From an uncultured Bacteroidales bacterium (GTDB lineage: Bacteria; Bacteroidota; Bacteroidia; Bacteroidales; P3): 64,000 bases of DNA. The notes below the pieces were generated by a model. That model was given only the letters and a program-made list of their open reading frames with translations. It did no database searches and was not told the origin of the DNA. The stretch spans positions 25,577 through 89,576 of the forward strand of contig ONBK01000013.1 of the NCBI GenBank assembly GCA_900316055.1, in the 5' to 3' direction. Position numbers and translations under genes: made by a program. How positions within the stretch are numbered: the first letter of the stretch is position 1; each line of letters starts with the position of its first letter. Below are positions 12,085 through 53,232 of the stretch, one piece after another.

Positions 12085-12246
12085 GTTGTTTTTATTTGTG
12101 TTTTATAATCATTCATCACTACCATCAACCGCGGGCATTCTTTGATTGGTTAATTTATAACAATAAGAAAAGGCATGAGGTTATGTGCTCATGTCCGTTG
12201 TTATTGAGGTAACGCCAATCACCTTTGAAGGAACGGGGTATAAGGA

Positions 12247-12440
12247 ACATATCTCACGCCTGAAGATATGCTACAGAGATATAGCATACACAATCAAGCG
12301 AAAGCATAAATGCTCCGTCCTCCTTCACGAAACTTGGCGTATTTCAATAACAGGACAGTATAGCAATGCTTTTCTTGCTTACAGCTTTCGCTCTCGAAAG
12401 CAAGTGCAAAGATACAAACTTAATTTGATATGGCAAAAAA
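12247..12440 (-). repeat. Dispersed element B, copy 1 (candidate structured RNA)
   Basis: About 194 bp that align with 53037-53232. Read on the minus strand it starts with a TATCTTTG box (12407-12414), then hairpin H1 (7-bp perfect stem, 12384-12390 with 12395-12401, loop CTCT), a variable middle, hairpin H2 (TATGCTA/TAGCATA, 12267-12288) and hairpin H3 (7-bp stem, 9-nt loop, 12248-12270). H2 and H3 share 4 nt, so their full stems exclude each other. In copy 2 the H1 stem is kept although one pair is swapped (T-A to A-T). The element lies upstream of the leftward gene group and about 60 nt before the RAYT gene on the other strand. Confidence 0.7.
12407..12414 (-). promoter_or_regulatory. -7 promoter box of element B copy 1
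   Basis: Minus strand TATCTTTG, preceded by GCCATATC about 15 nt upstream, the same layout as in front of both tRNA genes in this window. Confidence 0.65.
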
Positions 12441-12443
12441 AAA

Positions 12444-12474
12444 TTTGGTACATCTTTAAAAAGGTGTATTTTTG
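12444..12474 (+). promoter_or_regulatory. Promoter of the RAYT gene
   Basis: TTTG at 12444-12447 and TATTTTTG at 12467-12474, 19 nt apart: a full -33/-7 Bacteroidetes promoter. It starts at the right edge of element B and reads into the ATG at 12497. Confidence 0.7.
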
Positions 12475-12496
12475 CAATTGGAAAATCATCTATAAT

Positions 12497-13777
12497 ATGG
12501 CACAAAAGAATGACGAAAGACCGAGCGTGTGGAGGCCGGTAGACCCGACTAGGCACCACCGTGAGAACGGATGGGACTACCGCGGGCGTGCCATATATCA
12601 TTTTACCCTTGTGGTGGAAGAGAGGTACCCTCTGTTCGGGACGCTGGAGGGCGACAGCGCCGAGAAGGCGTTCGTCAGGCTCAATAACTTCGGTCACCGC
12701 GTTTATAGGATGCTGGACGAGCTGGCTCAGTTCTATAAGGGGAAAGGATTCGCCCTGAAGGTGCTGGCGCAGAAGGTGATGCCCGACCATATCCACCTTG
12801 TCATCCAGGTGCTGGAGCCGCTGCCGCAGAGCATCGGGGCGGTGGTGCGGGGGTTCAAGAGCGGGTGCACCAAGGTTTACAAGCAGGAGTACTTGGGCGA
12901 CAGGGCTTTTTGCGGCGGCGAGGGTAACGGCGGACTTGGCGGTGGCGAGAACGCCACCGGGGTGCACGGAAGCGGGGAGAACGGAACTAGGGTGCACGGA
13001 AGCGGAGTGCATGAGACCGGAGTGTACGGAAGCGGATGGACTGGACGTAGCGAGGGGCTTGGCGGCGAGAATGGCGAGGAGGCTCTCGTGCAGTTTGCAC
13101 GCATTTTTGCGGGCAGGGGGAGCATCTGGGAACAAAACCCAGCCTACTACCATGAACGTATCCTCCACGCACCGGGACAGCTGCGCCACATGATAGACTA
13201 TGTCAAGGATAACCCGCGCCGACTCTGGCTCAAAAAACACCATCCCAACCTCTTCAAGCTACACCGAAAGACTGAGGTCTGCTGCTTGTCTTTCACCACT
13301 TTGGGCAACCATTTCCTCCTCGATTGGCCCGACCGACAGATGGTGGAGATGTCTCGCAGTGCCACCGACGGGCAGATACAGGAAAGACTTCAGGCGGTGC
13401 TGGCAGCGGCACACAACGGGGCAATTACCTATACAGCCGCTATCAGCAAGGGCGAGAAACTGATAGCCCGCACCCTGCGGGAGCAGAGGTACCCTCTGGT
13501 GGTGCTCCTTAACGACGGTTTCCCCAAGGAGGGGTCTCCCCATGAACGCTACTACAAGCCGGGAGGGCTCTATTTCGAGGCTTGCGCAAAAGGGCAGCTG
13601 CTGTTATTGGAACCGACGGAACAGACAATCCTTGACACCTCCATACAGGCTGCGGTGGAAGAGACGCTGCGCCGGAAGGCGGAGGCGCGCCATTACCGCT
13701 ACACCCCAATCCCTGTGACCACCGACCGCTACCGCTTTGCCGCCCTCAACGAGATGGCACGACGGATGTCAAAATAG
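12497..13777 (+). CDS. RAYT-like Y1 (IS200/REP-associated) transposase with C-terminal extra domain
   Basis: 426 residues. The N-terminal half is a Y1 HUH nuclease: HUH motif MPDHIHLVIQV at about 95-105 and the catalytic tyrosine in MIDYVKDNPRR (Y235). Between them is a Gly-rich degenerate repeat (about 141-185, units like VHGSGE/VYGSGW) that looks like a late insertion. The C-terminal 170 residues contain AISKGEKLIARTLREQ and a later KPGGLYFEACAKGQLLLLEP, resembling a Rossmann DprA/LOG-like fold; that is inference. RAYTs are single-copy domesticated transposases linked to dispersed palindromic repeats. The start at 12497 follows a good promoter; the frame is open upstream only through element B. 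Confidence 0.82.
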   Translation: MAQKNDERPSVWRPVDPTRHHRENGWDYRGRAIYHFTLVVEERYPLFGTLEGDSAEKAFVRLNNFGHRVYRMLDELAQFYKGKGFALKVLAQKVMPDHIHLVIQVLEPLPQSIGAVVRGFKSGCTKVYKQEYLGDRAFCGGEGNGGLGGGENATGVHGSGENGTRVHGSGVHETGVYGSGWTGRSEGLGGENGEEALVQFARIFAGRGSIWEQNPAYYHERILHAPGQLRHMIDYVKDNPRRLWLKKHHPNLFKLHRKTEVCCLSFTTLGNHFLLDWPDRQMVEMSRSATDGQIQERLQAVLAAAHNGAITYTAAISKGEKLIARTLREQRYPLVVLLNDGFPKEGSPHERYYKPGGLYFEACAKGQLLLLEPTEQTILDTSIQAAVEETLRRKAEARHYRYTPIPVTTDRYRFAALNEMARRMSK

Positions 13778-53036: not shown

Positions 53037-53232
53037 ACATATCTCACGCCTGAAGATATGCTACAGGAATATAGCATACACAATCAAGCGAAAGCAGAAT
53101 GCTCGACCTTCCCACTGTTAATTTGCCGAATTTACAAGTAAGGACAGTATCGCAATGCTTTTCTTACTTACTGCTTACAATAACTCTCGTAAGCGACTGC
53201 AAAAGTACGAACTTTTCCTGATATGGCAAAAT
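53037..53232 (-). repeat. Dispersed element B, copy 2 (candidate structured RNA)
   Basis: Aligns with 12247-12440. On the minus strand: TACTTTTG box at 53200-53207 preceded by GCCATATC, H1 (GCTTAC with GTAAGC, 53173-53178 and 53189-53194, 10-nt loop), H2 (TATGCTA/TAGCATA) and H3 (53038-53060, identical to copy 1). Relative to copy 1, one pair of the H1 stem changed from T-A to A-T on both arms. The element lies between the era terminator and repeat A and does not lead into any gene, which favours a free-standing small RNA. Confidence 0.7.
53200..53207 (-). promoter_or_regulatory. -7 promoter box of element B copy 2
   Basis: Minus strand TACTTTTGCA. GCCATATC, AAAAGTT and TACTTTTGCA appear in the same order as in front of tRNA-Ser at 57.5 kb. 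Confidence 0.65.

Follow-up and report, generated by a model that had tools for sequence, protein, structure and literature searches.

The c-di-GMP (GEMM) riboswitches combine a compact pseudoknot core with mutually exclusive terminator and antiterminator helices, and several copies per genome stand before unrelated genes, often genes of the envelope. Other leader RNAs, such as EAR (epsC, RF01735), JUMPstart/ops and put, let RNA polymerase pass terminators. EAR acts on distant terminators, and antitermination systems (LoaP/UpxY) are known for polysaccharide operons. Three structured RNAs of the same phylum as the bacterium studied here, Bacteroidales-1 (RF01693), Bacteroides-1 (RF01694) and 6S-Flavo (RF01685), are listed in PMC2864571.

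Here we describe an element from an uncultured Bacteroidales bacterium (GCA_900316055.1, contig ONBK01000013.1), found in a stretch of 64,000 nucleotides that we call the window and to which all positions refer. We searched Rfam 15 with the window and eight named relatives at gathering and permissive thresholds (E up to 5 or 1) and obtained no match on the element. Only tRNAs scored above gathering, none of them on the element, and the other matches lay below gathering; Bacteroidales-1, Bacteroides-1 and 6S-Flavo were absent from the element's matches at E up to 5 or 1. The first-pass annotation, which was made from the sequence of the window alone, had likewise recognized no known RNA family. 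We found no description of this RNA in the literature listings covered or in passages of PMC7366714, PMC8040213, PMC2864571 and PMC10994844, and the papers listed by a literature search with a sequence string deal with unrelated genes.

Copy 1 lies on the minus strand of the window and consists of a promoter (about 12438-12405), an RNA of about 240 nt and a terminator-like hairpin with a U-run that ends near 12162 (Table 1). The promoter motifs are GCCATATC, followed by TATCTTTGCA at 12405-12414 in copy 1 and by TACTTTTGCA at 53198-53207 in copy 2, also on the minus strand. We take the promoter of copy 1 to be of the Bacteroidales -33/-7 type, and transcription is predicted to start near 12400 on the minus strand. 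Two similar copies with shared promoter motifs had been described in the first-pass annotation, and both the sequence and a whole-genome search bear this out: copies 1 and 2 are 80% identical over query positions 3-199 (E = 1.3e-42). The interval then given for copy 1, 12247-12440, leaves out the 3' end of the element, which lies 85 nt past that limit; homology with other full copies reaches about 12162 and takes in the hairpin and the U-run. The compensatory change reported in the 5' hairpin (H1) is real, GCTTTC..GAAAGC in copy 1 being GCTTAC..GTAAGC in copy 2 (T-A to A-T). Two further copies occur on other contigs of the same genome, which makes four in total, with covariance-model (R1) scores of 241, 229, 215 and 96 bits. 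The weakest is copy 2, in which everything 3' of X3 is gone; because this copy is truncated, with its 3' third missing, no gene stands behind it.

Table 1. Features of the element and its neighbors in the window
Feature	Position	Strand	Basis or remark
Promoter, TTTTGCC (12432-12438) and TATCTTTG(CA) (12405-12414)	12405..12438	-	sequence; similar motifs in aligned copies
5' hairpin GCTTTC-GAGAGC-GAAAGC (H1)	12384..12401	-	own-genome copies vary in sequence, pairing kept
Segment X1, GAAAAGCAT, inside small hairpin GCAA..TTGC	12363..12378	-	pairing comparison
Strand a (TGTCC) and variable N8 (TGTTATTG), 5' side of long-range helix P3	12345..12357	-	pairing comparison
ACGCCAA, 5' partner of the pseudoknot	12334..12340	-	pairing comparison
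Strand b (GAAGGAGGACGG), 5' side of P4, alternative partner of a	12315..12326	-	pairing comparison
Hairpin P5: X2 (12295-12307), apical stem (12266-12289), X3 CAGGCGTGAG (12253-12262)	12253..12307	-	
Strand c (CCGTTCCTTC), 3' side of P4	12227..12236	-	pairing comparison
P6 hairpin AGGTGATTGGCGTTACCT; loop TTGGCGT (12212-12218) pairs back to CGCCAA	12207..12224	-	pairing comparison
N8' (CAATAACA) and strand d (AACGGAC), 3' side of P3	12193..12206	-	pairing comparison
Terminator-like end: GGACATGAG (12188-12196), CTCATGCC = X4 (12172-12179), then TTTTCTTATT	12162..12196	-	
First ORF downstream of the copy 1 leader, 67 aa	11881..12084	-	ORF reading
Y1_Tnp (IS200-like/RAYT-like) transposase gene	12497-13777	+	divergent neighbor of copy 1
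Copy 2, keeping promoter, 5' hairpin, X1, a, N8, b, X2 and X3	53043..53231	-	sequence comparison
Losses of copy 2: c, P6, N8', d, X4 and U-run	divergence past 53043	-	sequence comparison

Short matches in the same genome (L005-L017) were tried as further copies and discarded, as by eye they shared promoters instead. The promoters at L005, L006, L008, L015 and L016 are unrelated, yet each is followed directly by a hairpin that resembles the 5' hairpin of the element and has a loop of the GAGAG type; the L016 promoter precedes a tRNA-like gene (by eye). Such a hairpin may be a general feature of transcript starts. No IS was recognized as the source of the copies in the sequence comparisons made here.

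We also looked for the element in other Bacteroidales genomes and found many further copies. Within the genus, a DNA search gave matches in 113 of 120 genomes (E <= 0.001); some are short and promoter-like only, and among the matches listed are many full-length copies of 72-90% identity. A profile search of 100 fetched regions and the earlier loci brought the number of genus copies to 134, including the four of the window's own genome. The covariance model R1, built from 61 genus copies, matched 60 of 393 genomes of the order, in 37 of 206 genera. The core pattern GGYGTTTGGCGATRCC was present in 74 of these 393 genomes, and its reversed control in 1. The paired pattern recovered at least 120 stretches from named genomes, and in these pattern-found loci the core letters are invariant by construction, except at the free Y and R positions. 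Among the matches listed are Bacteroides fragilis Q1F2, B. timonensis, B. cutis, Barnesiella sp. An55, Coprobacter secundus, Xylanibacter rodentium, Duncaniella muris, Butyricimonas synergistica, Odoribacter lunatus and MAGs labelled Alistipes and Parabacteroides. On viral contigs, the core was found in 33 stretches of 32 contigs (L371-L403), 13 of them distinct by a 60-nt identity rule; two of the ORF clusters behind the core hold 10 and 7 viral members. BLAST gave no match of the window element to plasmid records and none of the B. fragilis copy to phage records.

In 247 genomes of the class, R1 matched five, all of the same order. In a phylum sample of 395 genomes, the pattern gave 10 matches outside the order, and the reversed control matched in 2 genomes. 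Eight of these 10 have no upstream partner and were taken as chance; the other two have one and are relatives, with the pattern in 8 of 54 genomes of their family. This same-core relative (L412, L413, L423-L430) was seen in one family outside Bacteroidales. Copies also occur in MAGs labelled Lachnoclostridium and Lentisphaerae (L272, L291), which likely represent misbinned Bacteroidales sequence.

Along the RNA, the segments follow the order X1-a-(N8, CGCCAA)-b-X2, X3-c-(P6 hairpin, loop UUGGCG)-N8'-d-X4-U-run. N8, the 8 nt after GUCC, changes completely between copies, and the distant N8' changes in step with it, as in GUUAUUG/CAAUAAC, UUACUUGU/ACAAGUAA, UUGAUAG/CUAUCAA and UUUUGCU/AGCAAAA. 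The mean uninterrupted run of N8:N8' was 7.9 bp for cognate partners against 4.6 bp for shuffled ones (102 of 134 copies parsed). A pseudoknot arises where the P6 loop (GGYGU-UUGGCG-AURCC) pairs with CGCCAA, and one of its pairs is C-G in 35 of the 61 genus copies and G-C in 24; in the divergent set, a Y:R pair of the P6 stem is U-A in 39, C-G in 34 and U-G in 1 of 74 copies. In L021, L022, L037 and L126, N8 and N8' are mismatched and the copies look like mosaics of two leader types, which suggests recombination inside the leader.

RNAalifold on MAFFT alignments gave a partial fold only, in our opinion because the variable helix misaligns, and structures were instead projected from single copies. 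Over 54 pairs in 61 genus copies, 93.0% of the cells could pair, compared with 83.6% after shuffling and 27-43% in slid controls, and every shuffle and every slid control fell below the observed value. Cells compensatory on both sides numbered 310, against 106 +/- 8 in the shuffles, which leave phylogenetic relatedness in place. The covariation expected of a structured RNA is thus seen in a wider alignment and, together with the E-value of copy 2, excludes chance similarity. Some stretches are nearly invariant among genus copies. The element has the conserved, structured core with covarying helices that is looked for in a riboswitch, and the earlier reading of a structured RNA rather than a protein stands, given the compensatory changes, the promoter and the lack of an Rfam match.

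The transposase gene beside copy 1 raises two other readings. In the first, the plus strand of copy 1 would code for an N-terminal extension of the Y1 transposase, and the frame 12185-13777 is indeed open. However, the changes between copies follow RNA pairing, and stops occur in all three plus-strand frames across the element in the transposase-bearing loci L028, L029 and L039 (L091 is unreadable there), so that we rejected this reading as having a negligible chance of being right. In the second, the element would act at the DNA level, as a REP/RAYT-type or recombination hairpin spread by the adjoining transposase, whose gene is found in divergent orientation next to copy 1 and to four more genus copies (L028, L029, L039 and L091). 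These are the only 5 of the 134 genus copies with Y1_Tnp near them in the flanks examined, fewer than such an association would demand, and the promoter, the U-run and the gene orientation are kept. REPs are also short, unlike these copies of about 240 nt with long-range pairing. We therefore rejected this reading too, as very improbable.

The segments of the RNA can form two incompatible folds. Fold I is nested and pairs a:d together with N8:N8', b:c and X2:X3, and in divergent copies also X1:X4. Fold II consists of two successive hairpins, X1:X2/a:b and X3:X4/c:d, the second followed directly by the U-run, so that it looks like an intrinsic terminator. In divergent copies X1:X2, X3:X4, X1:X4 and X2:X3 can all form, and likewise a:b, c:d, a:d and b:c. 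Set A3 was built from 100 chosen loci that gave 98 matches, of which five were dropped (four of genus type by score and one duplicate); set A5 holds 74 divergent copies, of which one half (37) was taken from genomes outside the window's family and the other half (37) from pattern-found records regardless of family. In A5, the four X helices were paired in 91.9, 88.7, 90.3 and 84.9% of the cells, c:d in 76.5 and 83.4%, a:d with N8 in 70.1% and b:c in 60-82%; X2:X3 was paired in 99.3% in the 61-copy genus set. Because the whole-structure counts share the apical stem of P5, we counted again using only helices that belong to one fold and not to the other. In the 74 divergent copies, those of fold I were paired in 75.2% of the cells against 68.0% in shuffles, with a covariation score of 0.298 against 0.207, and those of fold II in 76.2% against 73.0%, with 0.254 against 0.206. 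Neither covariation score was reached by 500 shuffles or by any slide. The weak points of fold II are a:b (projected from one copy), paired in 58.7%, and one slide that gave 127 both-side cells against 129.

We also performed an alignment-free arm-swap test, for which 77 of 93 divergent and 108 of 134 genus copies were parsed and thinned to 67 and 36. In the divergent copies, cognate arms beat swapped arms at rates of 0.94 and 0.96 for fold I and 0.81 and 0.73 for fold II, with controls at 0.46 and 0.46. Both incompatible folds are supported, fold I more strongly. In the window's own genus, fold II had 96.4% compatible cells and 3 compensatory ones, its scores were reached by 22-142 of 500 shuffles, and its arm-swap values were 0.48 and 0.51; covariation cannot test fold II there because the strands are nearly invariant. 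A local hairpin of the genus, GGACAUGAG:CUCAUGCC, competes for X4, shares GGAC with P3 and is kept in 99.2%. The first-pass annotation had proposed a switch between two hairpins, H2 (GTATGCTA..TAGCATAT) and H3 (ATATC..GATAT). H2 is paired in 89.3% of the cells in 61 copies. H3 can be drawn in both window copies but is not a conserved helix, with 76.9% of the cells paired, 0 compensatory changes in 61 copies and a result no better than shuffles. The switch between these two hairpins therefore has to be given up, whereas a switch between mutually exclusive helices survives in outline.

At least six T occur in the 10 nt past X4 in all 131 genus copies in which X4 was found (of 134) and in 75 of the 80 divergent copies parsed (of 93, 92 distinct). 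The 3' hairpin of fold II was more stable than dinucleotide shuffles (z < -2) in 45 of 45 copies tested, with a mean z of -4.5. When the RNA is folded as a whole, its minimum energy lies about 12 kcal/mol below that of the separately folded halves (46 copies), and the minimum-energy structures inspected were nested; taken alone, this preference would leave the leader mostly ON. In the relatives outside the order, L412, L413, L423 and L428 show by eye a separate terminator-like hairpin, which shares part of its 5' arm with the 3' strand of P3; L427 and L430 of the same family show no such hairpin. An expression platform with exclusive helices, such as riboswitches carry, is thus found by comparison, and outside the order by eye. 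Read from the sequence, the layout is that of a putative intrinsic terminator with a competing antiterminator.

Next, we examined the genes behind the element. An ATG ORF of at least 100 aa begins within 80 nt on the same strand at 186 of 278 places, compared with 236 of 1390 random positions (17%) and 21 of 243 places on the divergent side under the same strict rule. A loose rule (an ORF of 45 aa within 220 nt) was satisfied at 330 of 353 places but also at 1111 of 1390 random positions (80%) and is uninformative; the 353 places include duplicates, 292 being distinct by the 60-nt identity rule. Given the enrichment under the strict rule, the element is best read as a 5' leader, on the strand of the gene and with the promoter upstream in aligned copies, as in a riboswitch. 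This displaces the earlier label of a candidate small RNA family. A trans-acting small RNA would have its function in the terminated product of about 240 nt, its position before genes being secondary; the element has its own promoter and a terminator-like end, a terminated transcript would be discrete, and the near-invariant stretches in genus copies are what a target-binding site could look like. Nevertheless, the strong enrichment of ORFs directly behind the element speaks against this proposal, and its two-fold design and the complementarity between X4 and the start hairpin described below are easiest to understand in cis. We consider a trans-acting function quite improbable.

Immediately ahead of the start codon lies a purine-rich hairpin to which the 5' part of X4 is complementary, and both change together. 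Among the 134 genus copies, 57 combine CCUC with GAGG(G)U and 29 combine GUCUC with GAGAC; at least 5 are discordant and about 30 of the 134 were not parsed. Cognate pairs beat swaps at rates of 0.72 (75 copies) and 0.75 (60 copies), whereas reversed-arm controls gave 0.53 and 0.51. A second motif (approximately GTTGYGCMCGRCAC) lies between leader and start codon at L024, L025, L027, L030, L037, L043, L044 and L049.

The genes themselves are very diverse. The 270 ORFs behind the 292 distinct places (loose rule) fall into 161 clusters, 122 of them singletons, and these numbers are upper bounds because chance ORFs are included. The largest cluster, with 44 of 330 ORFs in an earlier clustering that kept duplicates, is a BspA-type leucine-rich repeat family. 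A Pfam search of set A4 (136 of 167 cluster representatives) gave, among the matches listed (25 of 83 families), outer-membrane barrels, CsgG, PD-(D/E)XK nucleases, TerB, dynamin-like GTPases and a DNA methylase. A crude hydrophobicity rule would class 126 of the 270 ORFs as signal-peptide-like. The 67-aa ORF behind copy 1 has a near-identical version behind the same leader in another genome (L134). The ORFs share no common pathway, which sets the element apart from most metabolite riboswitches. On the sequence evidence, members of this RNA family in gut Bacteroidales stand at the predicted 5' ends of transcripts from many accessory genes that are unrelated to one another.

In Bacteroides fragilis, B. 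timonensis and B. cutis, the element precedes a polysaccharide-export lipoprotein gene (label by eye), which we take to be Wza-like. This gene, the large pseudoknotted leader and its terminator-like end would also fit a loading site for a dedicated antiterminator, either a protein or a NusG paralogue (as with EAR and LoaP/UpxY), in place of a ligand switch. Since the arms of the terminator belong to the conserved RNA itself, we regard such a loading site as unlikely.

It is practically certain that the element is a conserved, promoter-borne, structured leader RNA before genes. We further propose, with a probability of roughly 0.6, that it is a transcription-attenuating 5' leader of the kind described above, widespread in Bacteroidales. 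The leader probably controls whether polymerase reads the gene behind it, and it is possibly an orphan riboswitch; we infer the regulation, its direction and its signal. The CGCCAA:UUGGCG pairing joins both halves of the RNA into a pseudoknot core, which in the proposed mechanism would sense a metabolite, a second messenger or a protein. As long as the RNA stays in the nested fold, neither X4 nor the U-run would be available for the terminator and RNA polymerase would continue into the accessory gene; otherwise, transcription would stop after about 240 nt. Pairing of X4 with the start-codon hairpin may add translational control. More tentatively, and with less confidence than in attenuation itself, the element could represent a new riboswitch class of Bacteroidota. 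Its aptamer would be a kissing-loop pseudoknot and its terminator would work by doubled strand exchange, in answer to a broad signal, either a second messenger or a stress metabolite. Accessory genes and surface genes with no relation to one another would have joined one regulon by acquiring the leader.

If this proposal is true, it adds a common regulatory RNA to a dominant order of gut bacteria. Orphan genes, surface genes and mobile genes would make up most of the regulon; many of them have no known function, and an input signal common to all would be a first clue to the conditions of their use. Given that the core stands before a polysaccharide-export gene and also occurs in viral contigs, the leader may place both changes of the envelope and the cargo of prophages under a single signal. 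The two covarying folds would also offer a clean model of co-transcriptional strand exchange.

Compared with known systems, the element resembles EAR, JUMPstart/ops and put in that one of its targets is a polysaccharide-export gene, but it has no Rfam match and its terminator is built from the element itself. It resembles trp-type attenuators in that segments pair 1:2 and 3:4 (the terminator) or 2:3; however, it has two sets of exchanging segments (X1-X4 and a-d), linked to a pseudoknot, and the targets are not biosynthetic. For a single RNA that stands before many unrelated envelope genes, the nearest precedent is that of the c-di-GMP (GEMM) riboswitches. Although these have a different fold and the element gave no Rfam 15 covariance match, the two share the type of core, the exclusive helices, the presence of several copies per genome and unrelated, often envelope, targets.
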